A stretch of DNA of 64,000 nucleotides from Altibacter sp. (GTDB taxonomy: Bacteria; Bacteroidota; Bacteroidia; Flavobacteriales; Flavobacteriaceae): NCBI GenBank assembly GCA_002696485.1, contig NZTP01000083.1, positions 1 to 64,000 of the forward strand, in the 5' to 3' direction. The translations under genes and the position numbers were made by a program. A model generated the notes under the pieces. The model worked only from the letters and a program-made list of their open reading frames with translations, ran no database searches and was not told where the DNA came from. Shown piece after piece: positions 15,531 through 34,715 of the stretch (within the stretch, counting starts at the first letter, position 1; every line of letters starts with the position of its first letter).

Positions 15531-15631
15531 GCGACAAATTATTCTGAAAAAAAACCGAATCCTCAAATTATTGTTAATCCAATAATGGATTGGGGATAAT
15601 TGTGTAATTTTATACGTTCAACAAATTGAAG

Positions 15632-18004
15632 ATGAAGGCAAAGCAGGAAGCATTTCCGCTACATATTAAAATTAGTTTTAAAAAGCTTTTCGACCACTAC
15701 CGTAGTGTTTTGGAATCTGATTCCAAATTTGGAAAGGATCGTGCACGTGAAGTTTTAAAGCTGGAAAAAGAGTATCCTGAATTGTCCGAAGGTTTCGACG
15801 AAGAAGCTGATCTGGCCGGGTATACCGAGCAGATCGATTTCTTATTGGCCGATATCTTTAACGAGGCACTCACCTTGAACGAGATCAAGGTGGCTACTAC
15901 GCCATTTCAAACAGTGGTCTTTAAAGCCACCCAAAGGTATAAGAACATACTAAAGCAAGCAGGAAAAGACTTTACACCCGAGCTTGTTAATTTCGATGAG
16001 AAATATTTCTACATCATGGGATGTAGCATTATCCTAAATGCGTATTACGGCTATAAGATCGATTTTAAAAGACCCTTTTACTACAATATTCCCGATGCCG
16101 GTGGGACGGTTCGTAACTATCGTGTGATATACAACGGTGACTTTATGGATGTGGAAAAGACCGATAAGGCTGTAGAGATCACCCAGGAAGATGTGGATGA
16201 ACTCATGGAGAACTTTGAGAATATCGAAATCTGGAAGGAAAAATTTCCCGAAGAAGGCTGGATATTCAAAGGGTTTGTGATCGCCAATCTGTTTGACGTT
16301 ACGACCGATGTTTCCATATCCGATTTTAAATCGCATTTGTTACGACACGAATCGGAAGCCGGTGATCTGGGCAAGGATATGGAGACTATATTTAGAACCA
16401 TTTTTAATCTGAAAGACCTTAAAATGGGCTTTTCAGATTTCAATGAAGAAGACGGTACCTTCGAACGGATTCTCTATAAGAATGTGAATAGTTACATATT
16501 GGACGATAAGGATAGCGAAGTATGTTCCGACGCTTTGTGCGATGCATCTTTCTATACGCTATTCAAGAAACACGAATTGTACTGTGTAACCAACACCCAA
16601 AAATACCATACACTGTATCCAAACAATGTGCTCTATAAAAAATTGTTGGATCAAAATATCAAAAGCGCATTGTTCGCCGCCATCGTAGATGAAGGCAAGG
16701 TGCTGGGCGTGCTGGAATTGGTGTCTCCCACCGTAAACGGTTTGAATACCATTAATGCGAATAAGCTTAAGGATGTTATGCCCTTCTTAATCGATTCGGT
16801 AGTGCGTTCTAAGGAGCAGGCAGAGAACGAGCTGGAGCTGGTGATCCAAGAGGAATGTACATCAATTCACAGTAGCGTCCATTGGAAATTTAAACGAGAA
16901 GCGAAGCGTTATCTAAGTAGTTTGGCCAAAGGGGAACCTTCTTATTTCAGAGAAATCGTTTTTAACGACGTCTATCCGCTCTACGGACAAATAGATGTTA
17001 AGGGTTCTTCCACCGCGAGAAACGATGCTACCAAAAAGGATTTAGTGCTTCAGCTAAATCATGTCCAAAAGATCATTGAGAAGATTCATGCTATTGAGAA
17101 ACTTCCCATCTATGAACATATCGCCTTCAGAATTAATAAATATTTGGAAGATCTAAATGAAGAACTGCAAGTAGATAGTGAACGACAGGTACTTACGTTC
17201 CTTCGGAAAGAGATCATCCCATTATTTACACATTTAAGCAAGAAAAGCGAAACGCTCAAAGAGCTTATACAGAAATACCAAGATCTTATCGATACTGCAA
17301 CAGGGTTGATCTATAAACACCGCAAGGATTATGATGATTCTGTCATGCTCATCAACAAACGAATGGCTTCTATTCTTGACAAAAAACAGATTGAAGCCCA
17401 GCAAATGTATCCGCATTATTTTGAACGTTTCAAAACAGACGGCGTAGAACACAACTTATATATTGGTGAAGCCATTACTAAGACCAAGAGTTTTAATAAG
17501 GTTTATCTGTATAATTTGAGACTGTGGCAATTACAGGTCATGTGTGAAATGGAAAATAACTACTATAAGCTCAAAGAACGCTTACCCGTTGCGATGGATG
17601 TGGCTTCCATGATATTGTCTTTCAACAGCTCGTTATCGCTTCGTTTCCGTATGGATGAAAAACGTTTTGATGTAGACGGCACCTACAATGCCCGCTATGA
17701 AGTGGTTAAAAAGCGTGTCGACAAAGCGTTCATTAAAGGAACCGAGGAGCGCATCACGCAAGCCGGTAAGATCACTATCGTTTATTCGCAAAAGGAAGAT
17801 GAAGAAGAATATTTGAAATACATCAGTTTTCTCCAGGATCAAAAGAAATTAGATACCGATGTGGAGATTTTGGAATTGGAGGACTTGCAAGGTGTGACCG
17901 GGCTCAAAGCCATACGCGTTAGTGTCCTCTATGTAAATGAGACCAGTGATCAACAAAAGGAATATTATACCTACGACGACCTTATGTCCCAGATCAGTTC
18001 TTAA
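15632..18004 (+). CDS. Large cytosolic GAF-like domain protein of unknown function
   Basis: 790 residues from the ATG at 15632 (a TTG two codons upstream is less likely). No signal peptide or membrane helix is visible. Residues ~290-400 resemble a GAF-type ligand-binding domain (CDASFYTLFKKHELYC, then LFAAIVDEGKVLGVLELVS). The flanks are long, charged and helical, with coiled-coil-like stretches at ~480-600 (EKIHAIEKLPIYEH and onwards). There is no kinase, cyclase or HD catalytic motif. It could be a sensory scaffold. Its stop codon shares the sequence TTAA with the stop of the convergent HD gene. Function unknown. Confidence 0.8.
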   Translation: MKAKQEAFPLHIKISFKKLFDHYRSVLESDSKFGKDRAREVLKLEKEYPELSEGFDEEADLAGYTEQIDFLLADIFNEALTLNEIKVATTPFQTVVFKATQRYKNILKQAGKDFTPELVNFDEKYFYIMGCSIILNAYYGYKIDFKRPFYYNIPDAGGTVRNYRVIYNGDFMDVEKTDKAVEITQEDVDELMENFENIEIWKEKFPEEGWIFKGFVIANLFDVTTDVSISDFKSHLLRHESEAGDLGKDMETIFRTIFNLKDLKMGFSDFNEEDGTFERILYKNVNSYILDDKDSEVCSDALCDASFYTLFKKHELYCVTNTQKYHTLYPNNVLYKKLLDQNIKSALFAAIVDEGKVLGVLELVSPTVNGLNTINANKLKDVMPFLIDSVVRSKEQAENELELVIQEECTSIHSSVHWKFKREAKRYLSSLAKGEPSYFREIVFNDVYPLYGQIDVKGSSTARNDATKKDLVLQLNHVQKIIEKIHAIEKLPIYEHIAFRINKYLEDLNEELQVDSERQVLTFLRKEIIPLFTHLSKKSETLKELIQKYQDLIDTATGLIYKHRKDYDDSVMLINKRMASILDKKQIEAQQMYPHYFERFKTDGVEHNLYIGEAITKTKSFNKVYLYNLRLWQLQVMCEMENNYYKLKERLPVAMDVASMILSFNSSLSLRFRMDEKRFDVDGTYNARYEVVKKRVDKAFIKGTEERITQAGKITIVYSQKEDEEEYLKYISFLQDQKKLDTDVEILELEDLQGVTGLKAIRVSVLYVNETSDQQKEYYTYDDLMSQISS

Positions 18005-19224
18005 GCATTCGGGTCGACGATCTCTTTTACTTCTTCAATAGGAATATCTGCCACGCCAAAGGAGACACCAAAAGCAATAATGGAAATGATCGTTCCCACT
18101 ACAAAAATCGTATACGTGAGACGGAGGATTCTATATTTCCTATCCAGCACTTTTCCTAAGAAGTAAAGATCCTTTGTGAGGGACGAATAGATGTAATCTC
18201 GGTCATTTAGTAATTCTCCGATGGCCCATTGGTATTGCTTTAACTCCATCTTGTGAAAATTTCCAAAGAAGGTAAGATTTACACTCTTGTTTTCCACGTC
18301 CTCTTTGGTAAATTCACCTCTGGTCACATTAGGTCGGGTGGCGATTACCGCTAGGATCATGGTGACGGCACTGGATACCACAAAGACCGCTGTGGGCCAT
18401 ATTAAGTAGGGATTGGTGTCGAATTTAGAGAAGAGATTTGCTAGGATCACCGAGATTACAATGGCGTTTACCGACAAGAGAATGTTAGCCTTCGTATCTG
18501 CGATGTCACTTAGTTTAATATGGTTTCGAAGCGCCGTCCTATAAAAGGTTTGAATACCCCGATCCGGACTCGCATCTTTGTATTTCATTTTGAGTTGTGC
18601 CTTGAGGTCCTCACGCTTTAGCCGTTTTTTGTCTTTTTTCCTGCTTTTTATAAGGTTTGCGAGATTATCCTCTTTTTGTTTCTGCCAATTTCGAAGGGCA
18701 TAATCACTGTAAAATTGATGCTTTTCAATAAGTACCTTGATATTTTCATCGCGCCACTCGCGTGGTGAGAATTTTTGAATTCCTTGAGATTTGTATTCCT
18801 GTCGAAGGAACTCGCTGGCTTCCTCAAAATAATCCTTTCCAAAGTGCGAAGAATCAGCATCGCGTATCATTTCCTCCAAAGGTCCGTCCGGTGTTCCTTT
18901 AAATTTGGTCGCCATGATGCATTTATTTACGCCTTCTATAATTTCGGGATCTGCACCCTGCGATTCCAAAAATTCTGTAGCGATCTTTACACTCTCTTCT
19001 TCATGACCTTCACGAGTCACCGTATAGCCCGTATCGTGCAGTAATGCTGCCAATCTAAGCACTGTGGCATCTTTAACATTAATTTGTGAATCTTCAATAA
19101 TTTCGTTTATACTTTTATAAACACGTTTGGAATGGGTGTAGTTGTGATATACAAATGTGTTAGGTAATTTCTCCTTAAATAGGTTAAGGACAAATTGATC
19201 TGCTGCCTCGACGATATCGCTCAT
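18001..19224 (-). CDS. HD phosphohydrolase fused to Pycsar-effector-type transmembrane domain
   Basis: 407 residues in two parts. Residues ~1-190 are an HD domain with YHNYTHS, LLHDTG and RDADSSHFG supplying the His, His-Asp and Asp ligands. After a lysine-rich linker, residues ~230-400 match the membrane domain found in Pycsar effectors (PycTM/DUF5706): LSDIADTKANILLSVNA, then two adjoining helices and a final helix near the C terminus. Known Pycsar effectors respond to cCMP or cUMP from a neighbouring pyrimidine cyclase and damage the membrane. No cyclase lies nearby here. HD plus PycTM fusions are common in Bacteroidota chromosomes, so a housekeeping nucleotide role is as likely as defence. 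Confidence 0.85.
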   Translation of the reverse strand: MSDIVEAADQFVLNLFKEKLPNTFVYHNYTHSKRVYKSINEIIEDSQINVKDATVLRLAALLHDTGYTVTREGHEEESVKIATEFLESQGADPEIIEGVNKCIMATKFKGTPDGPLEEMIRDADSSHFGKDYFEEASEFLRQEYKSQGIQKFSPREWRDENIKVLIEKHQFYSDYALRNWQKQKEDNLANLIKSRKKDKKRLKREDLKAQLKMKYKDASPDRGIQTFYRTALRNHIKLSDIADTKANILLSVNAIVISVILANLFSKFDTNPYLIWPTAVFVVSSAVTMILAVIATRPNVTRGEFTKEDVENKSVNLTFFGNFHKMELKQYQWAIGELLNDRDYIYSSLTKDLYFLGKVLDRKYRILRLTYTIFVVGTIISIIAFGVSFGVADIPIEEVKEIVDPNA

Positions 19225-19276: not shown

Positions 19277-22200
19277 ATGAAGAAAATTAACATCATTATA
19301 ACTTTTATAGGAGTTTCCTTCTTTTTTGGATGCGCTTCCTATGCACCTCAATATCGCAACACAAATACCAATCACGAACTTCCCACGGCAAAAAAAGAAG
19401 TGGATCACACCTTTTTTTTATTGGGTGATGCGGGCTTTGCCGAAGATCCTTCGGGTTCTATGGCATTGCGTTCCTTTCAGGAGCATCTCAAAGAAAATAC
19501 TTCAAAAAATAGTCATGTGATCTTTTTAGGGAATAGCTTTTATCCATCGGGGATGTCTTCTGAAACACCTCCAAAAGCTTCTAATATTGACGCTCAGTTA
19601 AAGGCTATAGAGGGGCACGAAGGGAACGTGATGATCCTTCCGGGAGAATTGGACTGGCGCTCCAGTGTCGATGGTCTTGAATATGAAGAAGATTACCTGA
19701 AAGCGCGTTATGACGGGAAGGATATTCTGCAACCCAATAACGGTTGTCCTTTAGAGAGTATCGAGATCGGTGACGATATACAATTGATCGTCATAGATTC
19801 GCAATGGTATATCGAAAGCTGGGACGATCACCCGAAGATGAATGATAAGTGTGAGATCAAGACTCGCCGAAAATTCTTCATAGAAATTGAAGGGGAACTA
19901 AAAAAGAATAAAGGAAAGACCATCCTTTTTGCAACCCACCATCCACTCATTACCAACGGAAAGCATGGCGGTCGCTACACAGCTTTAAACCAAGTAGTAC
20001 CAATTCCCGGTCTTGCTACGGTGATCACCCAAGTGCGAAGCCAAGGAGCAATCTCAAGACAAGACCGTTATAATGAAAGGTACAACGATCTTATGAGTCG
20101 GCTGAATGTAATGGCCAAAGACCACGATCAATTGGTCTTTATTTCAGGACACGACCAGTCGCTTCAGTATTCCGAAGATAAGAACACAAAACAGATCGTG
20201 TCGGGAGCAGCGGGCGATGCAACAGCGGCAGCGCTGGGACCTCATGGATTGTTTAGTTTTGGCGGACAAGGATTTGCGGTTGTGACCGTATTTAAGGACG
20301 GTTCTTCTCAGGCAACATTTTACAAAGCAGAAGAAGACGGCGGCGCGACGGTTCTCTTTCAGAAGGAGATCATTAAAGCACCTAAAAAATACGATACATC
20401 CGGACTGCCGGATTCGTTTCCGGCAACTGTGAAAGCTTCGGTCTATGACGATGCGCTGGTAGAGCGAACCGGGTTTTTTAAGACTGTCTGGGGAGATCAT
20501 TACCGAAAAGTATACGGCACCGAAGTGACAGCTAAGGTTGTAGAAATAGACACTTTATATGGCGGATTGAAAGTGATCCGGGCAGGAGGAGGACACCAAA
20601 CACGTTCTCTTCGGCTTCAGGATAAGGAAGGAAGAGATTATAATATGCGAGCCTTGAAGAAGAGTGCCGTACAATTCCTTCAAACTGTTATTGTGAAAGA
20701 TAAAGAAGTGGAAGACGATTTTAAAGATACGCTGCCCGAAGATCTTATTCTGGATTTTTATACAGCAGCACATCCGTACGGGGCATTCACGATCCCAAAG
20801 CTCGCAGCAGCTGCCAACGTGTTTCATACCAACCCGAAGTTGTACTATGTTCCAAAACAAAAAGCCTTAGGGGAATTCAACGATGCCTACGGGGATGAAC
20901 TTTACATGATCGTGGAACGACCGGACGAACCTTACGATGGTGCAATCTTTAATTATCCCGATGACATAGAGAGCACAGACGACCTCTTAGACAAGATTAG
21001 AAGCGATGAAGAGAATGTAGTCGATGAGAAGACCTATATTCGAGCGCGGGTATTCGATATGCTAATTGGAGATTGGGATCGTCACAATGACCAATGGCGC
21101 TGGGCAGAGTTTAAAGATCAGGATGGGAAAGATGTATTTGTTCCTATCCCAAGGGACCGGGATCAGGTCTATGCAAACTTCGATGGCGGACTGTTGGATG
21201 TGGTGCGTGCCTTATTCAGTACCTCTCGTCAGTTTCAAGTGTATGGTTCCGAACTGAAGCATACCAAATGGTTTAATGCGGCCGGAATTAAACTGGATAG
21301 AGCCTTGGTGGAGAACTACGGAAGAGAAGAGTGGTTGGCCCAAGCAACCTACGTACAGCAGAATGTTACCGATGCTGTCATCGATAAGGCCTTCAACGAC
21401 CTTCCGAAGGAAGCGATGGATGAAACGGCCGAGGATATAAAGAATAAATTAAAGGGTCGGAGGGATAACATTGTAAAAATTGCCGGAGAGTACTACGATT
21501 ACTTTTCAGAACTTCAAATTGTAACGGGAACCGACAAAGATGATCACTTTGAGATCACGCGCTTACCCAATGGAGAAACCAACGTAAAGGTTTTTAGAAT
21601 AAAGGATGGTGAAAAAGGAGAAAAGATCGTAGACAGGACGTATACCGCACAGGACACTAAAGAACTATGGATCTACGGACTAGATGATGATGATGTGTTT
21701 GAAGTATCCGGAAACGGTAATAAACCTATTTTTATGCGAATTATAGGCGGTCAAAATAATGACACCTATAAGATAAAGAACGGGCGGGCGATAAAGGTAT
21801 ACGATCATAAAAGTCAGAAAAATACCATTGAAGAAAAAGGAGGTGCCGGTTTTCGTCTTACCGACAATTATAACTTTAATACCTATGAATATACCAAGCA
21901 GATCCAATCCACCAACTTATTCTTACCTTCCATAGGCGCCAATCCGGACGACGGTTTTAAGGTGGGGATTAGCAATGTATACACGGTGAATGGTTTTCAG
22001 CAGAATCCTTTTGCACAACAGCACCGCTTTGCTGCCGGTTATTATGTCGCTACGCAAAGTTTTGACGTGAGTTATGAAGGTGAGTTTGCAAATATCTTCG
22101 GAAGCTATAACTTCTTGATAGGCGCTCATTACAGGAATCCGAACTACGCAGTGAATTTCTTCGGCTTCGGAAATGAGACCATCAATCCCGAGTATGAAGA

Positions 22201-22957
22201 TGAAGATATGTTCGATCTGGATTATAATAGGGTACGTCTTGGAGGGTACGGAGGACACTTCGGTATTCAGAAGGATTCTCCTTACGGCAGTCTGTATCGG
22301 TTTACAGCACGCTTCGATGGCTATGAAGTAGAGGATACCCCCGGCCGCTTTATAAGCATGTTCCCTGTAACCGAATTGGACGAGACTAAATATTTTGCTA
22401 CTCTGGAAGCTACGTATGGTTATGAGAGCTATGACAATAAAGTGAATCCGTCCCGAGGAATGAAATTTGACCTCACAGTAGGAGGGACACAAGATGTCGA
22501 GGGATCCAACGATCTGTTTGGATACGTGAATCCGTATGTTGCGTTCTATAACGCCATCACCCAAGACCGAAAGTTGGTACTAAAGACCGTTGCACAAGGA
22601 CAAGTACGTTTGGGAGATGATTTTGAATTCTATCAAGCAGCACAATTAGGCAGCGACACGGGGCTCCGGGGCTATCGCGATGAGCGCTTTACAGGTAAAA
22701 CAGCAGCAGCGGGAAGTGTAGACCTACGGTATAGTTTTAACAGGTTCAAGACCGGATTGACACCGGTTCAAATAGGTATCTTTGGAGGCGCTGATGCAGG
22801 TCGTGTATGGCTTCCCAATGAGGATTCAGATGTATGGCACACAGATGTTGGCGGTGGTTTCTGGGTAAATGCAGCCGATATCTTAAGTGGGACCCTCAAT
22901 GTATTTGCCGGAGATGAAGGGATACGTTTAACCTTTGGACTGGCCGTTTCAATGTAA
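19277..22957 (+). CDS. Tandem paralogue 1: lipoprotein with degenerate phosphoesterase, kinase-like middle domain and Omp85-like barrel
   Basis: 1226 residues. Lipobox FFFGC puts the lipidated Cys at 19. Residues ~43-370 follow a purple-acid-phosphatase/calcineurin-like layout: GDAG at 50 and HH at 221 remain, but GDN has become GNS (85), GNHD has become GELD (123) and GHxH has become GHDQ (291). Residues ~400-660 carry kinase-like signs: GGGHQT (437), MRALKK (457), the catalytic-loop-like GDWDRH (598) and PRDRDQ (625). A segment with GTDKDD and GLDDDD follows. The last ~330 residues are a beta barrel with the Omp85 loop motif LRGYRDERFTG. I infer an outer-membrane protein with an inactive phosphoesterase and a possibly active kinase-like domain. 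It is the first of three tandem copies, 7 bp from the next. Confidence 0.9.
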   Translation: MKKINIIITFIGVSFFFGCASYAPQYRNTNTNHELPTAKKEVDHTFFLLGDAGFAEDPSGSMALRSFQEHLKENTSKNSHVIFLGNSFYPSGMSSETPPKASNIDAQLKAIEGHEGNVMILPGELDWRSSVDGLEYEEDYLKARYDGKDILQPNNGCPLESIEIGDDIQLIVIDSQWYIESWDDHPKMNDKCEIKTRRKFFIEIEGELKKNKGKTILFATHHPLITNGKHGGRYTALNQVVPIPGLATVITQVRSQGAISRQDRYNERYNDLMSRLNVMAKDHDQLVFISGHDQSLQYSEDKNTKQIVSGAAGDATAAALGPHGLFSFGGQGFAVVTVFKDGSSQATFYKAEEDGGATVLFQKEIIKAPKKYDTSGLPDSFPATVKASVYDDALVERTGFFKTVWGDHYRKVYGTEVTAKVVEIDTLYGGLKVIRAGGGHQTRSLRLQDKEGRDYNMRALKKSAVQFLQTVIVKDKEVEDDFKDTLPEDLILDFYTAAHPYGAFTIPKLAAAANVFHTNPKLYYVPKQKALGEFNDAYGDELYMIVERPDEPYDGAIFNYPDDIESTDDLLDKIRSDEENVVDEKTYIRARVFDMLIGDWDRHNDQWRWAEFKDQDGKDVFVPIPRDRDQVYANFDGGLLDVVRALFSTSRQFQVYGSELKHTKWFNAAGIKLDRALVENYGREEWLAQATYVQQNVTDAVIDKAFNDLPKEAMDETAEDIKNKLKGRRDNIVKIAGEYYDYFSELQIVTGTDKDDHFEITRLPNGETNVKVFRIKDGEKGEKIVDRTYTAQDTKELWIYGLDDDDVFEVSGNGNKPIFMRIIGGQNNDTYKIKNGRAIKVYDHKSQKNTIEEKGGAGFRLTDNYNFNTYEYTKQIQSTNLFLPSIGANPDDGFKVGISNVYTVNGFQQNPFAQQHRFAAGYYVATQSFDVSYEGEFANIFGSYNFLIGAHYRNPNYAVNFFGFGNETINPEYEDEDMFDLDYNRVRLGGYGGHFGIQKDSPYGSLYRFTARFDGYEVEDTPGRFISMFPVTELDETKYFATLEATYGYESYDNKVNPSRGMKFDLTVGGTQDVEGSNDLFGYVNPYVAFYNAITQDRKLVLKTVAQGQVRLGDDFEFYQAAQLGSDTGLRGYRDERFTGKTAAAGSVDLRYSFNRFKTGLTPVQIGIFGGADAGRVWLPNEDSDVWHTDVGGGFWVNAADILSGTLNVFAGDEGIRLTFGLAVSM

Positions 22958-22964
22958 TTATTTT

Positions 22965-25900
22965 ATGATCAAAAAAAGTGTATTCGTTCTATTAGTCATG
23001 GTACTATTCGGTTCGTGCGCCTCCTATGATGCGCTCTATCGTGAACCCGATAGGCAAGTGGTTTATCCTTCAGAAAAGAAGGTGGAAAAAACTTTCTATC
23101 TCATTGGTGACGCAGGACTTTCCCCAATGGACGGTATGAGCGACGCCCTTAAAACACTTCAAAACCTCATAAAGGATAAGGACACCGAAGGCGATTTTGC
23201 GATATATTTAGGTGATAATATCTATCCCGACGGAATGCCTCCACAAGATCAACCCATAGGGCGTAAGTGGGCCGAGAACCATTTGGATGCACAACTTAGA
23301 GCACTCGAAGATTTTAAGGGTGAGATTGTTTTTATACCGGGAAATCACGACTGGTATAACGATGGTCTCGCAGGGTTACGCCGTGAAGAACTCTATTTAG
23401 AATTCGCGTCGGGTAAAAATCTATTACGACCCTCAGGGGGCTGCCCTCTTGAAAGCATTGATCTGGGCGAGAACATTCAGTTGATCGTAATAGATACACA
23501 GTGGTATTTGGAGGACTGGAACACAGACCCTAGTATCAATGAGAATTGTGAGATAAAGACGCGAGAAAAGTTCTTTATAGAAGTGGAGACCGAATTGGAA
23601 AAGAATCAAGGTAAGACCATTCTTTTTGCAATGCATCATCCTATGTTTACCTACGGTGCCCATGGCGGACACTTCGCTTTAAAAAAACATTTGTATCCAT
23701 TGCAAAAAAAGATACCAATGCCTATTCTCGCTTCATTGGTGGCGCAAATACGGTCGCAGGGAGGCGTTTCGGTGCAAGACCGTTATAACGAATTGTATAA
23801 CAAATTAATGACGCGCTTGGCGACCATTTCAAAAAAGAGCAAGCGCCTTGTCTTTGCATCGGGTCACGAACACAGCATGCATCACATTGAGCAAGATGGG
23901 TTAATTCAGATCCAAACAGGCAACGGTGCTAAATCGAGTTTTGCAGATCTTGGACAATTTGGTGAATTTAGCTACGGCGGACAAGGATTTGCGGTTATGG
24001 ATGTGTTTGAGGACGGATCGTCGTGGGTAAAATACTATGGTGTTGGAGATAATTACACCCCTGAGCTATTGTTCCAAAAGGAGATCATCGCTCCTCCAAA
24101 ACCTTATGACATCAGCAGTTTGCCAAAATTGCCAAAAGATCTAAAAACAATAAGCGTACCTATCTACAAGCAAGACTCTATCAATGAGGCGCTATTCTTT
24201 AAAACCGTGTGGGGAAAAAAATATAAGGATGTGTACGCTCTCCCCGTTGAAGCTCCCATTGGTTACTTGGATACCCTCTTTGGAGGTGTTACCGTAATTG
24301 GTGAAAGCAGTAATAAGAATTTTAAAGCCTTGCGATTAGAAGATAAGGATGGGAACGAATACCGAATGCGTACCCTAAAGAAAAATGCGCTAAATTTTCT
24401 AACAAAAATAGATGTTTCCTTAGACCCTCAAAACGTAGAAGCCTCACAAGAGACCGATGCAAAGGAAGAGATATCGTTTCCCGATAATTTTGATAGTAAC
24501 TTCTATACCGCTACCCACCCATACGCCCAAATGGCGATTCCTGTTTTGGCAGATGCGATCGAGATCTTTAATACAAAACCCAGGTTGTATTATATTCCCA
24601 AGCAGGAGCGTCTAGGTAATTACAACGAGAATTTTGGAAATGACCTGTACTATATTTCAATACAACCCAATGAGGATAGCGAGGGCCAACGCACCTTCGA
24701 ATATCCGGACGATATCGAGACCACGGATGATATCCTTATTAAAATGCGCGCCCGTGCCGATCTCCGAGTGGATGAGCAAAATTATATAAAATCAAGATTA
24801 TTCAATATGCTTATTGGCGATTGGGATCGTGAAAGCGATCACTGGCGTTGGGCCGAGTACTACAACAGGGACAGCCTTAATGTATTTGTACCCATCCCGA
24901 AGAATCAAGACGATGCTTTTTCCAGCTTTGAAGGGAGCATCCTCGATGTGGCAAAGTCTATCTTCGGAAGCAATAACCAGAAGCATATCTATAGTGAAGA
25001 CATACGGGATTTGCAATACTTTAATGAAGAAGGGATCATTCTGGACAGAGCGCTTCTGAAGCGCTCGGGGAGAGCCCAATGGATCTTTTTGGCCGAAACA
25101 ATGCAGAAAACGTTAACCGATTCGCTCATTGATGCGGCCTTTATGAGGGTTCCTGAAGAGGTACGTGAAGAATCCTTAAAAGAGATTATTGAAACCTTGA
25201 AAGCTCGAAGAGAGAACTTAGTGGACATAGCAGATCGTTACTATTCCTATTTGGCTACGCAGCAAACCATAGAAGGAAGTAATTATAACGACTATTTTGA
25301 GATCACAAGACTGCCGGAAGGGATGACCAATGTTAAAGTATATGCTAATTATAAGGATGCACGGAAGGAACCGGCCATCGATCGCACGTTCAGGGCCAAG
25401 GAGACACGTGAGATTTGGATCTATGGTTTGGATGGTAAAGATACGTTCGAAATACATGGCGACACAGACGGAGATCTGATCTTTGTCCGATTGATTGGAG
25501 GACAAGGGATCGACACTTATAAACTCATAGAAGGCGAAAATGCTAAGGTGTACGATCATGAAAGCAGAGAAAGTAATGTGGAAGTGCGAAAAGGGGGCAG
25601 TCTTCGATTTACCGATGTGTACAATCTGAATGTGTACGATTACCGGAAACAGATCACGCGCTCCAACGATTATGCTTCAGTCTTTGGCTACAATCCGGAT
25701 GACGGCATGAATGCGGGTATACAATTCACATATCTGGTAAATAATTATCAACGAAATCCGTTCTCCCAAAAACACACGGCCCGAGCATCTTACTATTTTG
25801 ACACTTCAAGTTTTGATGTAGAATACAATGCAGAATATGCTAATATTCAGAACGATAGAAATCTTAGTTTTGGCCTCTATTTTACCAGTCCAAACTATAC

Positions 25901-26696
25901 GGTAAACTATTTCGGCTACGGAAATGAGACGCTTAATCCTGAAGAGGAATTAGGGATCGAGAACAATAGGGTCGAATTACAGACTATTGCTGCCAACATT
26001 GGTTTGCTTCGAAACTCTAATTTTGGTAGTTTCTTTAAACTTCAAACAAAAGTGGAAGCCATACGGCTTCACAGTCCGTTGCCCGCCTCACTTTCACCAA
26101 ATGCGACTTTGATACAAGACGAAACTTCCTATTTCGGAACGCTGGAAGGACTTTATAACTATCGCAGCTACGACAATCCGTTGAACCCAACTAAAGGAAT
26201 GATGTTCGATCTTTCGGCGGGAGCTACCGACAATTTAAAGGATTTAGACAGGATATTCGGATTTCTTAAAACCCGACTGGGTTTTTATAATGCTTTAACG
26301 AGAAACAAGAAGGTTGTTCTTAAAACGAATATTCAGGCAGGATTTAACTTCGATAACAATTTTGAATTTTATCAAGGTGTGACCTTAGGCGCTAATAACG
26401 GCTTACGGGGGTACCGGGAGGAACGGTTTACCGGAAAATCATCTTTAGTTGGAAGTGCCGATGTGCGGTATAGTTTCAACGAATTTAAAATAGAACTCAT
26501 CCCCATTCAGGTGGGGGTCTATGGAGGAGCCGACCTTGGGAAGGTCTGGGTACCGGGCCATGAATCCGATAAATGGCACAATTCCTTAGGCGGCGGGTTA
26601 TGGATCAATGGTTCGGGTGGCCTCAATGGATCTTTCAGTGCTTTTCATTCGGTGGAAGGGACGCGCTACGTGTTTGGCTTCGGCCTTACCTTTTAA
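22965..26696 (+). CDS. Tandem paralogue 2: lipoprotein with intact phosphoesterase motifs, degenerate kinase-like domain and Omp85-like barrel
   Basis: 1243 residues from the ATG at 22965; an earlier in-frame start at 22935 would overlap paralogue 1 and bury the signal peptide. Lipobox FGSC, Cys at 18. The phosphoesterase domain keeps every metal motif of the purple-acid-phosphatase type: GDAG (48), GDNIY (83), GNHDW (126), HHP (224) and GHEH (300). The kinase-like domain is altered instead: the glycine-rich GGGHQT becomes ESSNKN (~447), DRH becomes DRE (~621) and RDRDQ becomes KNQDD (646). MRTLKK is kept. The barrel has LRGYREERFTG. It should be an active surface or periplasmic metallophosphoesterase. 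Compared with copies 1 and 3 it is the most diverged. Confidence 0.92.
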   Translation: MIKKSVFVLLVMVLFGSCASYDALYREPDRQVVYPSEKKVEKTFYLIGDAGLSPMDGMSDALKTLQNLIKDKDTEGDFAIYLGDNIYPDGMPPQDQPIGRKWAENHLDAQLRALEDFKGEIVFIPGNHDWYNDGLAGLRREELYLEFASGKNLLRPSGGCPLESIDLGENIQLIVIDTQWYLEDWNTDPSINENCEIKTREKFFIEVETELEKNQGKTILFAMHHPMFTYGAHGGHFALKKHLYPLQKKIPMPILASLVAQIRSQGGVSVQDRYNELYNKLMTRLATISKKSKRLVFASGHEHSMHHIEQDGLIQIQTGNGAKSSFADLGQFGEFSYGGQGFAVMDVFEDGSSWVKYYGVGDNYTPELLFQKEIIAPPKPYDISSLPKLPKDLKTISVPIYKQDSINEALFFKTVWGKKYKDVYALPVEAPIGYLDTLFGGVTVIGESSNKNFKALRLEDKDGNEYRMRTLKKNALNFLTKIDVSLDPQNVEASQETDAKEEISFPDNFDSNFYTATHPYAQMAIPVLADAIEIFNTKPRLYYIPKQERLGNYNENFGNDLYYISIQPNEDSEGQRTFEYPDDIETTDDILIKMRARADLRVDEQNYIKSRLFNMLIGDWDRESDHWRWAEYYNRDSLNVFVPIPKNQDDAFSSFEGSILDVAKSIFGSNNQKHIYSEDIRDLQYFNEEGIILDRALLKRSGRAQWIFLAETMQKTLTDSLIDAAFMRVPEEVREESLKEIIETLKARRENLVDIADRYYSYLATQQTIEGSNYNDYFEITRLPEGMTNVKVYANYKDARKEPAIDRTFRAKETREIWIYGLDGKDTFEIHGDTDGDLIFVRLIGGQGIDTYKLIEGENAKVYDHESRESNVEVRKGGSLRFTDVYNLNVYDYRKQITRSNDYASVFGYNPDDGMNAGIQFTYLVNNYQRNPFSQKHTARASYYFDTSSFDVEYNAEYANIQNDRNLSFGLYFTSPNYTVNYFGYGNETLNPEEELGIENNRVELQTIAANIGLLRNSNFGSFFKLQTKVEAIRLHSPLPASLSPNATLIQDETSYFGTLEGLYNYRSYDNPLNPTKGMMFDLSAGATDNLKDLDRIFGFLKTRLGFYNALTRNKKVVLKTNIQAGFNFDNNFEFYQGVTLGANNGLRGYREERFTGKSSLVGSADVRYSFNEFKIELIPIQVGVYGGADLGKVWVPGHESDKWHNSLGGGLWINGSGGLNGSFSAFHSVEGTRYVFGFGLTF

Positions 26697-26712
26697 TAAA
26701 TAATGTATAGCT

Positions 26713-29700
26713 ATGATGCGATGTTGTATCCTTTTACTTTTTAGTATGATTCTTATCGCTTCCTGTACCACTTCAGGTACGGTGATCGATAGGAATGCTT
26801 CAGAAGTGTGGCAAGACGATAAGGATACCGTATCGGTAAAGGCGACATTCATTATAACCGGAAACGCGTCCGGCTTTAATAGTGATAAAGTATTATCAGC
26901 CATAAAAGAAACGATTGTTGCAACGCCTTCAGAAAAGCGTTACATCCTGTTTGTGGGAGACAATATACGTGGGGATAGCGAAGCTAAAATTAAAGAGAAT
27001 CTGGATAAGCAAATTGCCGTATCAAAAGCCAGCAAAGCCAAAGCTTTCTTTGTTCCCGGTAAATACGAATGGGAATTCGATGGAACGAAAGGCTTGGAGG
27101 TTATGGAGGATTATTTGGAAAAAGCCCTTGAAACCGATGAGGTCCTAACACCCAATAATGGTTGTCCGCTGGAAAGTATCGAGATATCAGAGTCCATTCA
27201 ACTTCTCGTCATGGACAGTCAGTGGTATCTGGAAAATTGGGACAAGCATCCGGGTATGAATGATAAGTGTGAGATCAAAACACGGGAGAAGCTGCTTTTA
27301 GAGATTGAAGGAGAATTAAAGGATCATGCCAATAAACTGGTGCTGTTTGCGATCCATCATCCGTTGTATACTAATGGTTTTTATGGGGGACGGTTTTCGG
27401 CTCGCGATCATCTGTTTCCGTTTCAAGGAAATATCCCGCTTCCGGGTGTGGGTACTTTAGTAGCACAAATTAGATCGCAAGGCGGACCCTCTATGCAGGA
27501 TCGGTTTAACCTTCGGTATAGGGAGATGGTTGATGCCTTGCTTCCATTGCTCACGGAAAACGATCAACGTATCTTAGTGTTTTCGGGACACGAGAAAAAC
27601 CTCCAGTATATAGAAAAAGGAGCCATACGCCAAATTATTTCAGGTGCCGGAAATGATACCAGACCTGTTGGGATTAGTGATAACGGATTATTTTCTCACG
27701 GAGGACAAGGGTTCACCGAAGTGGCAATTTTTGAAGATGGTAGTGCTTGGGCTACCTTCTTTGGTGTAAATGCCGAAGGGAAAGTTAGTGAACTCTTTCA
27801 GAAGAAGGTCATTACAGCACCTATCCCTCCAAAGCTGGATCATCTCCCCACAAATTTTCCTAAAACAATGAAAGCTTCGGTCTACGATCTGGATCTGGTA
27901 GATCGTTCCGATTTCTTTAAGTCGTTTTGGGGCAATCACTATCGCGCGGTGTATGGAACCAAGGTTGAAGCCAAGGTCGCGGTATTGGATACGCTTTACG
28001 GAGGGCTTACTATCGAGCGACCCGGAGGCGGACACCAAACAAAGTCGTTACGACTGTTGACCAAAGAAGGGAAAGAGTACAATATGCGTGCCTTGAAGAA
28101 AAGTGCCACTCAATTTCTAAAGAGTACTACGTTTAAGGGGATAGACGGAGAGAAGTATTTTTCTGAAACCGTTACCGAAGAACTGATCTTGGATTTCTAT
28201 ACAGCGGCACACCCCTATGCGGCATTTGCCATCCCAACGCTCGCTAAGGCGGCCGGAGTGTACTACACTACGCCTGAATTATTTTATGTACCGCAACAAA
28301 AAGCGCTAGGCAAATACAATGAGGAATACGGCGACCAACTATACATGATCGTTGAAAAACCCTCTGATGAGTACACTGACAAGAAGAATTTTGGCTATCC
28401 GGATGATGTTGAAAGTACCGATGATCTCTTAAATAAACTTAGAGAAGACGAAGATTATATTTTAGATGAAGAGGCCTACATTCGGGCACGTATCTTCGAC
28501 ATGCTTATAGGCGACTGGGACCGTCATAGCGACCAGTGGCGATGGGCCGTTTTTGAAAATGAAGGAGGCAAGACCGCTTTCGTTCCAATCCCTCGGGATC
28601 GAGATCAGGTATTTGCCAATTTTGATGGAAGTTTTTTGAATGTACTGCGCAAACTCATGGGAGGTGTCAATCAGCTTGGGGTTTATGGACCGGACATTCA
28701 CGATGTGAAATGGTTTAATGTGGCGGGCTCCAAACTTGACAGAGCTTTGGTAAAACGCAGCGCCAGAGAAGTATGGCTAGAGCAGGCTAAAATCCTGCAG
28801 GCCGCCATCAACGAACAGATTGTCGATCAAGCCTTTAACGCACTTCCTAAAGAGGTGCAAGACAGTACCGTCGTCGAGATCAAATCCCATCTGCTGGCAC
28901 GTAAGGACAATTTGGTCTCCATCGTTGATCGTTATTATTCTGCTTTCATTAGGTTTCAAATGATCACCGGAACCGACAAAGACGATTACTTTGAAATTAC
29001 CCGACTCCCGAATGGGGTGACCCGTATTGTAGGATACAGGATCAAAGATGGGGAGAAAGGAGATTTGTTGTTCGATAGAACTTTTAATAGTCGGGAGACT
29101 GAAGAAATTTGGCTTTACGGTTTGGATGATGACGACGTATTTACGGTCACCGGAGAGGGAGATCATCCGGTATTGCTTCGCATTATCGGCGGGCAGGAAA
29201 AGGATCGCTACAACATACAGAACGGAAAAAGAATCAAGGTATACGATCGCCGGTCTATGGACCATGAGATCGTGAATAAAGGAGGAGCGCAATTTCGGTT
29301 TACAAACTTTTATGAAGCGAATTTGTACGATTACCAAAAGAAACCATCATCAGGGGGCAGCATAGGCTTATTTACAGGCTACAATCCCGATACCGGGCTC
29401 TCTGTAACAGCCCAATTCGAGAAGACCGTAAATCAATTTATTGCAAATCCGTACGGTCGAAAATTCAACCTAAGCGCCGAATACCACTTTTTGACCCAAG
29501 GATTAGATATTAAATTCGCCAAGCGGTATGCTGCGGCAGTGGGTTCATTCAACATGCTGCTACAAGGACGTGCAACATCCAAAAATTATACTCAAAACTT
29601 CTTTGGCTTCGGAAATGAGACCCGCAATGATGAAGAAACTTTAGGAATTGATTTCAACAGGGTAAACCTTAGTTGGTACGAAGGAGGAATTGGTCTCGAG

Positions 29701-30384
29701 ACTGCTTCAGAGTACGGAAGTTTTTTTCAAATTGGTTTGAACCTTCAAGCGGTAGATGAAATTCGTAATGGGGTTAATTTCTTCGACCAGAACTTTTCCG
29801 AAGCATTTGGTGCACGCTCTTATTTCTTGAAACCCTCATTGACGTATCGCTATAAGAACTTTAACGATCTCTATTTTCCAACTAAAGGAATGCTGTTTCA
29901 AATTGAAGGGGGTGCCATTGAAGCATTGGATTCAGAAACTATAAGCGCTTTTGTAGATACCGGCATCACGTTTTACAATTCACTGTTAAGTAATAATAGG
30001 TTGGTGTTAAAGACCGAAGCAAAGAGCTATATCACTTTTGGAGATCGCCCTGAGTTCTATCAATCCGCTCAATTAGGGGCTGCACGCGGATTGCGATCGT
30101 ATCGCAATCAAAGGTTTACGGGTGATAAAGACCTATTGGGAAGTGCAGATCTCTATTACAGTTTTGAAGAACTTAAGACCTTTCTCTTTCCATTGGCGAT
30201 CAATGTTTTTGCGGGATACGACATAGGCAGGGTTTGGGTCTCAGGTGAAGATTCCCAACAATGGCACCAGTCGTATGGCGGCGGAGTGCTACTGAAATGG
30301 ACCGATGCGATCTTGGGTAATGTAAGTGCATTCCATGGGGCTGAAGGTTTACGTATAGCCTATGGTTTCGGGCTTAGTTTTTAA
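26713..30384 (+). CDS. Tandem paralogue 3: lipoprotein with degenerate phosphoesterase, kinase-like middle domain and Omp85-like barrel
   Basis: 1223 residues. Lipobox LIASC, Cys at 18. The phosphoesterase motifs are degraded: GDxG becomes GNAS (50), GNHD becomes GKYE (116) and GHxH becomes GHEK (292); GDN (82) and HHP (215) survive. The kinase-like domain is intact and close to copy 1: GGGHQT (438), MRALKK (458), GDWDRH (600) and PRDRDQ (627). The barrel loop motif reads LRSYRNQRFTG, with Ser replacing the usual Gly. It starts 16 bp after copy 2 and overlaps the convergent lipoprotein gene by 11 bp. Sequence and motif pattern group it with copy 1, so the order is 1-2-3 with the odd copy in the middle. 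Confidence 0.9.
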   Translation: MMRCCILLLFSMILIASCTTSGTVIDRNASEVWQDDKDTVSVKATFIITGNASGFNSDKVLSAIKETIVATPSEKRYILFVGDNIRGDSEAKIKENLDKQIAVSKASKAKAFFVPGKYEWEFDGTKGLEVMEDYLEKALETDEVLTPNNGCPLESIEISESIQLLVMDSQWYLENWDKHPGMNDKCEIKTREKLLLEIEGELKDHANKLVLFAIHHPLYTNGFYGGRFSARDHLFPFQGNIPLPGVGTLVAQIRSQGGPSMQDRFNLRYREMVDALLPLLTENDQRILVFSGHEKNLQYIEKGAIRQIISGAGNDTRPVGISDNGLFSHGGQGFTEVAIFEDGSAWATFFGVNAEGKVSELFQKKVITAPIPPKLDHLPTNFPKTMKASVYDLDLVDRSDFFKSFWGNHYRAVYGTKVEAKVAVLDTLYGGLTIERPGGGHQTKSLRLLTKEGKEYNMRALKKSATQFLKSTTFKGIDGEKYFSETVTEELILDFYTAAHPYAAFAIPTLAKAAGVYYTTPELFYVPQQKALGKYNEEYGDQLYMIVEKPSDEYTDKKNFGYPDDVESTDDLLNKLREDEDYILDEEAYIRARIFDMLIGDWDRHSDQWRWAVFENEGGKTAFVPIPRDRDQVFANFDGSFLNVLRKLMGGVNQLGVYGPDIHDVKWFNVAGSKLDRALVKRSAREVWLEQAKILQAAINEQIVDQAFNALPKEVQDSTVVEIKSHLLARKDNLVSIVDRYYSAFIRFQMITGTDKDDYFEITRLPNGVTRIVGYRIKDGEKGDLLFDRTFNSRETEEIWLYGLDDDDVFTVTGEGDHPVLLRIIGGQEKDRYNIQNGKRIKVYDRRSMDHEIVNKGGAQFRFTNFYEANLYDYQKKPSSGGSIGLFTGYNPDTGLSVTAQFEKTVNQFIANPYGRKFNLSAEYHFLTQGLDIKFAKRYAAAVGSFNMLLQGRATSKNYTQNFFGFGNETRNDEETLGIDFNRVNLSWYEGGIGLETASEYGSFFQIGLNLQAVDEIRNGVNFFDQNFSEAFGARSYFLKPSLTYRYKNFNDLYFPTKGMLFQIEGGAIEALDSETISAFVDTGITFYNSLLSNNRLVLKTEAKSYITFGDRPEFYQSAQLGAARGLRSYRNQRFTGDKDLLGSADLYYSFEELKTFLFPLAINVFAGYDIGRVWVSGEDSQQWHQSYGGGVLLKWTDAILGNVSAFHGAEGLRIAYGFGLSF

Positions 30385-31234
30385 GAGATAATTCGTAGAG
30401 ATTTCCTCCCTCATATCCATTGCGTTCATCGGCTATATACAAAGTATTGGCATCCTTAAAACTCACGCTTTCCTTTTGTGATTTATGACCTATTTTTATC
30501 TTCTCCACAGTTCCTTCAAAGAAGCGATCTTCAGGGTAGTCCTTGAAGATAAACACTTTGTTATAGGTAAGAAGTGCTATAGTACCGTTTTTATGATCGA
30601 TAGCTGCACCAGTCACATCACAATCTGAAGGATCCTTACAAGTTTGGAAAGAACTGATTAATTTGGCTTCAAAAGTACCGGCCTGCGCAGGAAGTTTATA
30701 CAACTTTGTCGTGCCATCAAAACTAGCACTACGGTTTCTGGTAAACAAGTAAAAATGCGCATTAAAATAGATAAAAGCCTCTATGTCGAAGTTGCGCTCG
30801 CTCTTCTTTGGAGGAAATTCAGTTTGATCTTCCAAGGAGAATGCCGTCCTTGTGGCAGTGGTTCTGTCGTCTTGGATAGCAACAACATTTGGTACCGTGT
30901 AGATAGCTAGGTTTTGGCGCGCATTATTGTTATTGCCAAAATCACCTATATAAAGCGTTCCTTTTTCATCAGCCGCAAGATCTTCCCAGTCATGATTCTT
31001 GGCATTTTCGATCTTGATGGTTCTCTTAACGGCTTCTGTAGCGGGGTCGACACCAAAAACGGCACGCGCATTTCCTGCATCGGCCACCATCCAGACTAGC
31101 TCACTATCGGGAAGATATTCAATTCCGCTCACTTCATCCAACGCTAGGGGTAAGGAGGCAAGGATTTTTAGCTTTCCAAAGTCTTGACAGCTTATCGAAA
31201 CACAAATAAAACAAAAGAGCAGAAACTTTTTCAT
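30374..31234 (-). CDS. Propeller-like lipoprotein of unknown function
   Basis: 286 residues. Lipobox SISC after a short hydrophobic stretch. The body is made of repeated beta segments with motifs such as LDEVSGIEY, WEDLAADEKGTLYIGD and KESVSFKDANTLYIADE. This pattern fits a six-bladed beta propeller of the SdiA-regulated/esterase-like type seen in Bacteroidota. No catalytic triad is evident. It overlaps the end of paralogue 3 by 11 bp (tail to tail). Its start lies only 5 bases after the strong hairpin downstream of dps and no separate promoter is visible, so its expression probably depends on readthrough from dps. Confidence 0.82.
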   Translation of the reverse strand: MKKFLLFCFICVSISCQDFGKLKILASLPLALDEVSGIEYLPDSELVWMVADAGNARAVFGVDPATEAVKRTIKIENAKNHDWEDLAADEKGTLYIGDFGNNNNARQNLAIYTVPNVVAIQDDRTTATRTAFSLEDQTEFPPKKSERNFDIEAFIYFNAHFYLFTRNRSASFDGTTKLYKLPAQAGTFEAKLISSFQTCKDPSDCDVTGAAIDHKNGTIALLTYNKVFIFKDYPEDRFFEGTVEKIKIGHKSQKESVSFKDANTLYIADERNGYEGGNLYELSLKN

Positions 31235-31975: not shown

Positions 31976-32767
31976 ATGAAACCCTATTTAACCTTGGCCA
32001 TACAGGCTGCATTGGACGCAGGTGAAAAGATCTTAAGTGTGTATGAAACCGGTTTTGACATCGAGACCAAGGACGACAATTCACCACTAACTACCGCCGA
32101 TACATTGGCCAACGATGCCATTATGCGCTACCTCAGGCAAACGGATATACCCATTATAAGTGAAGAGAACAAACGCATTGCTTATTCAGAACGAAAAAAC
32201 TGGACACGCTGCTGGATCGTGGATCCGCTGGACGGAACGAAAGAGTTTATTAAACGGAATGGCGAATTTACGGTGAACATTGCCTTAATTGAGGATAATG
32301 CACCCCTATTGGGTGTTATTTATGTCCCGGTAAGCAAAATACTTTATTTTACGTCACAGGACGGTACCAAGGCATATAAGATCGAATTAGCTTCGGAAAC
32401 GGTTTCCGTAGATGATATCTTCGCAAATGCTTCGGAAATACAACCCGATACAAAAGGGGGGTCTCCGGTAAGGATCGCAGGGAGTCGTTCTCATTTAAAT
32501 GAGGATACCAAGGCATTTATTTCAGAAATAGAGAAAGAGAATTTGGTTGAAATCGTTTCTAAAGGAAGTTCTTTAAAATTTTGTTTGGTGGCTGAAGGGG
32601 CTGCCCATGTGTACCCGCGGTTTGCACCTACCATGGAATGGGATACGGCTGCAGGTCAGGCTATTTGTGAAGCAGTGAAGATCAAGGTTCTGGATAACGA
32701 TACTCAAAAACCGTTGCGCTATAACAAGGAGAATTTATTGAATCCTTACTTTTTGGTAACTGCCTAA
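31976..32767 (+). CDS. cysQ: 3'(2'),5'-bisphosphate nucleotidase
   Basis: 263 residues, inositol-monophosphatase superfamily. CysQ hydrolyses 3'-phosphoadenosine 5'-phosphate (PAP) to AMP, removing the inhibitory by-product of PAPS-using enzymes. Metal-binding motifs: SEENK (the EE type) near residue 62, WIVDPLDGTKEF near 80, and the C-terminal EWDTAAGQAI (WDxAA). The stop overlaps the next start by one base (TAATG). Placed first in an operon that goes on to make PAPS and then encodes a sulfotransferase, it probably clears PAP made during polysaccharide sulfation. Confidence 0.95.
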   Translation: MKPYLTLAIQAALDAGEKILSVYETGFDIETKDDNSPLTTADTLANDAIMRYLRQTDIPIISEENKRIAYSERKNWTRCWIVDPLDGTKEFIKRNGEFTVNIALIEDNAPLLGVIYVPVSKILYFTSQDGTKAYKIELASETVSVDDIFANASEIQPDTKGGSPVRIAGSRSHLNEDTKAFISEIEKENLVEIVSKGSSLKFCLVAEGAAHVYPRFAPTMEWDTAAGQAICEAVKIKVLDNDTQKPLRYNKENLLNPYFLVTA

Positions 32768-33192
32768 TGAAAGACACATCCTATAAAAGGCACATCGCCA
32801 AGACCATCACTTGGCGTATTGTTGGAACCGTTGATACTATTCTGCTTTCTTGGTTGATCACGGGAGATCCTTTATTGGGGTTGCAAATTGGTCTAGCTGA
32901 GGTCATCACCAAAATGATCCTCTACTTTATCCATGAACGGGTTTGGTTTAGAGTGAACCTATCGAAGAATGGTAAGGTACTGGAAAGTAGAAAACGACAC
33001 ATAGCCAAGACATTCACATGGCGCGGTCTGGGGACTTTGGATACAATGATCATATCGTGGATCATTTCGGGGAATCCGTTTACCGGACTGAAAATTGGAT
33101 TCGCAGAGTTGATCACAAAGATGATTTTATATTATCTTCACGAAAGAGTTTGGTATCGAACGGATTACGGATTAAAAGCACGCAAATACTAA
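32767..33192 (+). CDS. Double DUF2061 membrane protein
   Basis: 141 residues built from two ~55-residue DUF2061 units. Each begins with KRHIAKT(I/F)TWR, contains an LI(T/S)G-type turn flanked by hydrophobic helices, and ends ITKMILY(F/Y)(I/L)HERVW. DUF2061 proteins are small predicted membrane proteins, usually a single unit, often near sulfate-activation genes. The molecular role is not established. It lies between cysQ and cysC with one-base overlap and 5-bp gap, which links it to PAPS metabolism; a role in sulfate or sulfated-product handling is inference. Confidence 0.88.
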   Translation: MKDTSYKRHIAKTITWRIVGTVDTILLSWLITGDPLLGLQIGLAEVITKMILYFIHERVWFRVNLSKNGKVLESRKRHIAKTFTWRGLGTLDTMIISWIISGNPFTGLKIGFAELITKMILYYLHERVWYRTDYGLKARKY

Positions 33193-33197
33193 CAGCA

Positions 33198-34693: not shown

Positions 34694-34715
34694 GATAATT
34701 AGTAAAGAACCCAAT

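Follow-up and report, generated by a model that had tools for sequence, protein, structure and literature searches.

A close described parallel to the genes reported here is found among alarmone enzymes with HD and SYNTH domains (Rel, RelA and SpoT), where duplicates of a fused bifunctional ancestor with opposing activities lost one activity or the other (PMC3153485); the part of that study drawn upon here reports an asymmetric fate as well as a split that is more complete, and argues that the former is unlike simple degeneration-complementation. With regard to architecture, the consulted portion of Heinz and Lithgow 2014 (PMC4104836) sets out 'Metallo' and 'noNterm' subfamilies as variants of Omp85 proteins, the former with a PF00149 domain before the Omp85 barrel; the fusion of a metallophosphoesterase (MPE) to such a barrel has thus been known since 2014. 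Here we analyse three tandem genes, copies 1 to 3, on a stretch of 64,000 nucleotides from Altibacter sp. (contig NZTP01000083.1, positions 1 to 64,000; hereafter the window), which encode outer-membrane proteins with an MPE domain, a kinase-like domain and an Omp85-type barrel, and in which the motifs of the two enzyme domains are reciprocally lost. Both fates described for the alarmone enzymes also occur in this family at the motif level, although the present proteins belong to the outer membrane. We regard the subfunctionalisation of a fused bifunctional protein, a writer and an eraser in one chain, as the probable origin of the array, in likeness to the passage from Rel to RelA and SpoT.

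The genes lie head to tail on the plus strand with intergenic gaps of 7 and 16 bases: copy 1 at 19277..22957 (1226 aa; L225 in our locus set), copy 2 at 22965..26696 (1243 aa) and copy 3 at 26713..30384 (1223 aa), the start codons being of our choice. Identity to copy 2 is 45% for copy 1 and 41% for copy 3. From the N- to the C-terminus each protein consists of a signal sequence that ends in a lipobox-like Cys, the MPE domain, a middle domain of ca. 370 residues, a linker of ca. 130 residues and the barrel. These segments correspond in copy 1 to ca. 19400-20386 (MPE), 20429-21508 (kinase-like), 21512-21910 (linker) and 21956-22951 (barrel), and in copy 2 to ca. 23082-24104, 24150-25259, 25260-25664 and 25707-26693, the latter being the slices behind our domain profiles; the kinase-like region of copy 3 spans ca. 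27853-28968. Pfam recognised PF00149 (E 1.1e-8) and PF01103 (E 2e-7) in copy 2 only, and NCBIfam gave sub-threshold Omp85 matches in all three copies (Omp85_fam in copy 3 at E 1.7e-9, below the cut-off). A match of copy 2 to TIGR04260 (NCBIfam, E 1.4e-4) was discarded as its score lies under the cut-off of that model. An AlphaFold2 model of copy 2 (residues 44-1243; predicted local distance difference test score, pLDDT, 85.4; predicted template modelling score, pTM, 0.82) contains 16 long strands between residues 855 and 1199, which indicates a predicted 16-stranded C-terminal barrel of the Omp85 type, and its top fold matches in the PDB are BamA and TamA. No POTRA domain was matched before the barrel in any of the three copies at E up to 1 with Pfam and NCBIfam.

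Copy 2 thus fits the 'Metallo' description, with two differences. PF00149 is labelled as metalloprotease in PMC4104836, whereas Pfam defines it as calcineurin-like phosphoesterase, and in the main text of that paper, as far as drawn upon, the word 'kinase' occurs 0 times and a split between paralogues is not seen. Neither the kinase-like domain nor the split was the subject of any paper found in a literature search whose coverage mostly excluded subscription papers. The protein of PMC10281475, considered as a possible family member, was excluded because the consulted part describes it as a TonB-dependent receptor.

The metal-ligand motif set of purple acid phosphatase (PAP)-type enzymes is composed of GDxG, GDxxY, GNH[DE], HH and GHxH. 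All five are present in copy 2 (GDAG, GDNIY, GNHD, HHP and GHEH), and the PAP-type reading of this copy, already proposed in an initial annotation made from the sequence alone, is further borne out by PF00149 and by matches to Plasmodium GAP50 (3tgh) at the level of the sequence profile (E 0.0022) as well as of the fold (E 5.6e-9). GAP50, which is named in the title of that entry as an anchor in the inner membrane complex and which we take to be PAP-like, differs in being eukaryotic, and we know of neither a kinase domain nor a barrel in it. In copy 1 the motifs are damaged to GNSFY, GELD and GHDQ with GDAG retained, and in copy 3 to GNAS, GKYE and GHEK, while HH is unchanged in copies 1, 2 and 3; among eight scored sites four are altered in copy 1 and five in copy 3, so that neither carries the PAP-type set. 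The kinase-like motifs behave in the opposite way, being intact in copy 1 (GGGHQT, DWDRH, PRDRDQ) and copy 3 and altered in copy 2 (ESSNKN, DWDRE, PKNQDD). Every motif listed in the initial annotation was recovered, in letters as in position. In the following, M and K denote the metallophosphoesterase and kinase-like motif sets, plus standing for intact and minus for lost; the window copies are accordingly M-K+, M+K- and M-K+.

The middle domain was not identified by sequence searches against Pfam, NCBIfam or the PDB, and fold comparison alone disclosed its relationship. With the model of the copy 1 domain (pLDDT 81.3, pTM 0.84), 16 entries of the PDB were matched at E values of 0.001 or less and indicate a predicted kinase-like fold; they are headed by Helicobacter CtkA (E 6.9e-5; template modelling scores, TM-scores, 0.41/0.50). 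Most other matches are HipA or HipT entries (from ca. 1e-4, TM-scores 0.28-0.35), followed by COQ8A (2.5e-4) and, more weakly, by Rio2, PI4KII and Golgi casein kinase. The kinase-like assignment of the initial annotation is thereby upheld at the level of the fold. Because the TM-scores are modest (mostly 0.2-0.5), we assign a predicted kinase-like fold and not membership in the HipA family. Pfam HipA_C (PF07804) has no match above its gathering score in any window copy, and it does not appear in the 25 of 37 Pfam families listed for 91 kinase-like domains. The genome of the window also encodes a stand-alone kinase-like homologue (L004:1306-2616 on contig C1; 436 aa, with an apparent N-terminal membrane segment), which contains GDWDRH and GDRDN motifs, has similar frames in L264 and L265 and reaches 12.9 bits against HipA_C, below the cut-off of 30.5. 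In an alignment of 59 domains including distant members of the phylum, the conserved positions are kept in 53-58 of 59 sequences (P0001 numbering): G437, G438 and Q441 of the glycine-rich loop, R458, K462, D594, D599, the DWDRH loop 599-603, Q606, W607, W609, P623, P625 and D627-R628-D629. We presume that these positions are equivalent to the catalytic and metal residues of HipA and Fam20C. Besides the fold shared with CtkA and HipA, the domain has a DRHxxQ loop and a later DxD that, as we assume, are similar to the motifs for catalysis and metal binding in HipA and Fam20C. It differs from CtkA and HipA in that HipA_C has no match above the cut-off here and that, in a chain headed by an export signal, it is fused to both an MPE domain and an Omp85 barrel.

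Relatives were collected as 79 loci, the best 79 of 578 confirmed places, found with search patterns that favour an intact MLIGDWD; further copies came from a whole-genome protein search free of this bias. Together they amount to 260 full-length frames (at least 1100 aa), 235 of them unique. When any change among eight M or nine K sites was scored as loss, 139 of the 235 proteins are M+K+, 67 M-K+ and 29 M+K-, and none has lost both sets; G51, N85 and H224 are invariant in the 168 M+ proteins, though they lie outside the sites defining M+. A recount over nine M and nine K sites, with at least two changes counted as loss, a single change as uncertain ('?') and L045 left out owing to a masked region, yielded 139 M+K+, 64 M-K+, 27 M+K-, two M+K?, two M?K+ and no M-K- proteins (n=234). 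The exchange H225N alone (L168, L189) counts as M loss in the strict scoring and is set apart in the recount.

Within the taxonomic family, matches were obtained in 110 of 149 genomes (101 of the 125 of good quality) and in G002 and G003, two further genomes of the window's genus outside the 149-genome draw. At least one full-length copy was fetched from 105 of these 112 genomes, the other seven giving no fetched frame of at least 1100 aa. One M+K+ copy is found in 72 genomes and one M?K+ copy, differing by H225N alone, in two; these are the 74 one-copy genomes, 'one copy' meaning one full-length copy among the matches listed. M+K+ copies are accompanied by one M-K+ copy in 17 genomes and by two in a further 2 (19/105), and a full split is present in 12, nine with an M+K- and two M-K+ copies and three with one of each. 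All 12 genomes that hold a K- copy also hold an M-K+ copy, and, the two uncertain H225N cases excepted, every one of the 105 genomes has an intact site of both kinds. Split arrays occur in the named relatives Aequorivita, Marixanthomonas, Ulvibacter, Marinirhabdus and others. Full tandem trios like that of the window were seen in five of the 12 split genomes (G000, which is the window's, G001, G015, G057 and G081), and those related to the window keep long intact reading frames and the same tandem order; in six others the copy-2 type occurs together with one of the outer types, a dispersed M-K+ paralogue or both, and the twelfth, G083, stands apart. Across 78 named loci (L045 left out) a lone M+K- copy occurs in one, L012, and a lone M-K+ copy in two, L072 and L073. 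L012 is accompanied by a copy that is broken into two frames, L072 and L073 by copies that end at contig borders. In L012 / L292 (G295:C91) the further copy consists of two overlapping frames next to the intact-frame M+K- copy.

As judged from motifs, there are relatives whose only copy has both sites intact and duplicates whose losses complement each other, a pattern that would correspond to subfunctionalisation. The reciprocal loss proposed for the window is real and common to related arrays. Homologous arrays whose copies all keep both sets or lose them at random, the outcome that would have spoken against the proposal, were largely not encountered, either in the motif states or in the motif-free divergence described below. 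The expectation that losses are always complementary was too strong, in view of the 19 genomes with M+K+ plus one or two M-K+ copies as against 12 with the full split.

The divergence of the domains was also compared without the motif columns, as the identity of each protein to M+K+ proteins in the kinase-like domain minus that in the MPE domain. This difference is +0.062 to +0.116 for the copy-1 type (n=19), +0.051 to +0.112 for the copy-3 type (n=14) and -0.102 to -0.060 for the copy-2 type (n=26), compared with -0.047 to +0.054 for M+K+ proteins (n=139). Copy-1 and copy-2 types lie outside the M+K+ range, and the sign for copy 2 is opposite to that for copies 1 and 3. In the three clades of the window the domain without its motifs is the more diverged one, also beyond the motif columns. 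In a FastTree phylogeny without these columns, the copy-1 (19), copy-2 (26) and copy-3 (14) types each form a clade (support 1.0 in all three); a clade of 38 (support 0.93) unites copies 1 and 3 with five related paralogues. A mixture-model tree of 69 rows, from a quick search, again returned the three types as clades and did not settle the branching order among them. D84N is present in 12 of 12 copy-1-type rows of this tree and D49 is lost in 12 of 12 copy-3-type rows; given this difference, the M losses of copies 1 and 3 may have begun differently. Of 12 domain comparisons between the window and G001, degenerate domains included, 11 give a ratio of nonsynonymous to synonymous substitution rates (dN/dS) of 0.011-0.074 and one is undefined; the dS values of 1.07 to 2.05 are near saturation. 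The degenerate MPE domains have the highest dN within their own proteins (copy 1, 0.056; copy 3, 0.101). The low ratios suggest that the degenerate domains are still constrained.

A second split is apparent in G083, where L179, an M+ protein, carries D621N and H623R, and L215 is M- with intact K sites. L179 is placed in the tree among M+K+ proteins and far from the copy-2 type, so that its K loss is a separate one, and L215 belongs to an M-K+ clade of 13 common to other genomes. Compared with two M+K+ relatives, L179 is 0.703-0.715 identical in the MPE and 0.601-0.620 in the kinase-like domain, the two relatives sharing 0.825 and 0.811 with each other. From these sequences G083 appears as one clear separate case of the split. 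G293, with L277 (M+ with H623N) and three M-K+ copies, is possibly an early stage of another.

Consistent with these data we propose the following scenario. The ancestor would have been a lipoprotein-like outer-membrane protein with two opposing phosphate-handling units in front of an Omp85 barrel, a PAP-type metallophosphoesterase predicted to take phosphate off and a HipA/CtkA-like kinase-fold domain predicted to put it on. In the lineage of the window the gene would have been duplicated and the two activities partitioned between the copies, one keeping the phosphoesterase while its kinase-like domain became a probable pseudokinase, and the others keeping the kinase-like site while their phosphoesterase became a pseudoenzyme. 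The degenerate domains would probably serve as structural, substrate-binding or partner-binding modules, and writer and eraser would become separately tunable; they may share a substrate and might assemble into a hetero-complex. The site of action would most likely be the periplasmic face of the outer membrane. N-terminal domains of Omp85 barrels face the periplasm. A lipobox-like Cys is found in 198 of the 235 proteins, in 0/198 of which it is directly followed by an acidic pair; as this acidic export signal is lacking, the surface location suggested in the initial annotation was dropped. On these grounds, and as for other Omp85 N-terminal domains, we place the enzymatic domains in the periplasm with moderate confidence.

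Several observations weigh against such a partition. To our knowledge, the periplasm is not expected to contain free ATP. A single loss event accounts for all 26 copy-2 proteins, and few separate splits are therefore known. The window's genus is represented by four genomes, three of which have split copies, whereas G003 has a single M+K+ copy (L113, G003:C44:6700-10800) that clusters with M+K+ proteins of other genera and may reflect replacement, a lost array or a problem with the grouping. The copy-3 type touches the M+K+ range of domain divergence (0.051 versus 0.054), and 26 other M-K+ proteins overlap it (+0.022 to +0.144). L269, a full-length protein of the distant genome G220, has lost both sets, whereas L246, another copy of the same genome, keeps both; an 886-aa protein in G302 lacks the MPE domain and has a degenerate kinase-like site, and a match of the same length exists in G079, whose full-length copies are M+K- and M-K+. 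Such double-lost paralogues, together with the 19 asymmetric genomes, would suit a plain relaxation in which redundant copies decay and a genome need only keep one working site of each kind. We hold this to be improbable, as the related trios retain long intact frames in the same order, the degenerate domains have low dN/dS, and no double loss occurs among the 234 full-length proteins of the family-level survey; random decay also came out weaker in the tests based on domain-wide identity and dN/dS.

A further objection to a simple partition concerns the kinase-like domain of copy 2. It retains D621 (the Asp of DWDR), D649 (the second Asp of DxD), K473 and R469, and the copy-2 type conserves not only D621 (26/26) and D649 (24/26) but also the altered residues E623 (23/26), H626 (23/26) and N647 (21/26). 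Moreover, this domain is not evolving faster between the window and G001 (dN 0.034, compared with 0.037-0.040 for the other domains, the MPE domain being at 0.037). With D621 and D649 retained and the altered residues conserved across the type, 'altered' is a safer term than 'dead', and the site might possibly have undergone a change of chemistry instead of death. Within the kinase superfamily, altered chemistry is known from some members. One may accordingly envisage neofunctionalisation, in which the altered domains, such as the DWDRE/H/NxD site of copy 2, gained new chemistry or ligands and the paralogues serve different substrates, a view with which the low dN/dS of the degenerate domains also agrees. 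It appears rather unlikely to us, though less so than relaxation, because the glycine-rich loop of the copy-2 type (positions 448-451) is variable, the M sites of the copy-1 and copy-3 types vary among relatives (position 303 being mostly Q, R, E or K), and in 12 of 12 genomes the losses are accompanied by a paralogue in which the corresponding site is intact. We therefore continue to favour subfunctionalisation.

Beyond the family, a search with the kinase-domain alignment gave matches in 54 of 148 genomes of the phylum. Fifty loci contain full MPE-kinase-linker-barrel proteins, kinase-linker-barrel proteins of ca. 855-963 aa, kinase-linker proteins of ca. 500-590 aa and kinase-only proteins of ca. 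430 aa. In L256 a separate, intact MPE gene comes immediately after a kinase-linker gene, a two-gene version of the fusion observed at this one locus. L258:952-6187 carries a tandem kinase-linker-barrel pair without MPE domains, the kinase-like site being degenerate in the first and intact in the second protein. The Omp85 proteins characterised to date function in assembly or translocation, according to the consulted parts of PMC11116518 and PMC4104836. Taken with the BamA and TamA fold matches of copy 2, this might imply that the barrel is the active part, exporting or assembling another protein in the manner of BamA/TamA or PlpD, with the enzyme-like domains as regulators or passengers. We give this little credence, less than any other alternative, since over 1500 sampled M+K+ pairs the barrel is conserved no better than the enzyme domains (mean identity 0.471 versus 0.517 and 0.528) and kinase-like units without a barrel exist (L255, L256, L261, L264, L265).

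Divergently from the array, a gene on the minus strand (18001..19224) encodes a 407-aa membrane protein with HD (E 1.9e-9) and PycTM (E 4.3e-37) domains. A homologue is present in 79 of 80 loci (the window and 79 others), the exception L073 being cut by a contig end; in 71 of the 79 it lies upstream in divergent orientation, and it also accompanies the distant full-length homologues L268 and L270. A functional link with the array is likely, and in view of this near-constant presence the gene, with its PycTM (Pycsar effector) domain, resembles a housekeeping partner more than a defence gene. Further upstream, a 792-aa protein (15626..18004, plus strand) has no Pfam match at E 0.01 and a homologue upstream in 67 of 80 loci. 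Downstream, a gene for a protein with a weak, sub-threshold Phytase-like match (30374-31234, minus strand) is convergent with copy 3, overlaps its 3' end by 11 bases and has a homologue downstream in 25 of 80 loci. An inositol-phosphatase-family gene and further genes, presumably cysD/cysN-like genes of sulfate activation, follow on the plus strand (31976-35972).

In a broader perspective, these proteins might represent an unrecognised extracytoplasmic writer/eraser phosphorylation system of Bacteroidota, in which a putative new kinase family and a PAP-like phosphoesterase are mounted on an Omp85 barrel, genetically tied to the membrane HD-PycTM protein and split in more than one lineage, with dead domains acting as pseudoenzyme partners. 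For such partners Fam20A/Fam20C offers a comparison. We put this wider proposal forward tentatively and would not yet lay even odds on it. The family is widespread, and yet its middle domain has no Pfam model. The array appears as a clear example of subfunctionalisation domain by domain, in which the pseudoenzyme domains have been kept, and the single-site paralogues are natural loss-of-function variants with which the role of each domain may be found. Taken together, the findings point to reversible phosphorylation outside the cytoplasm of Bacteroidota.

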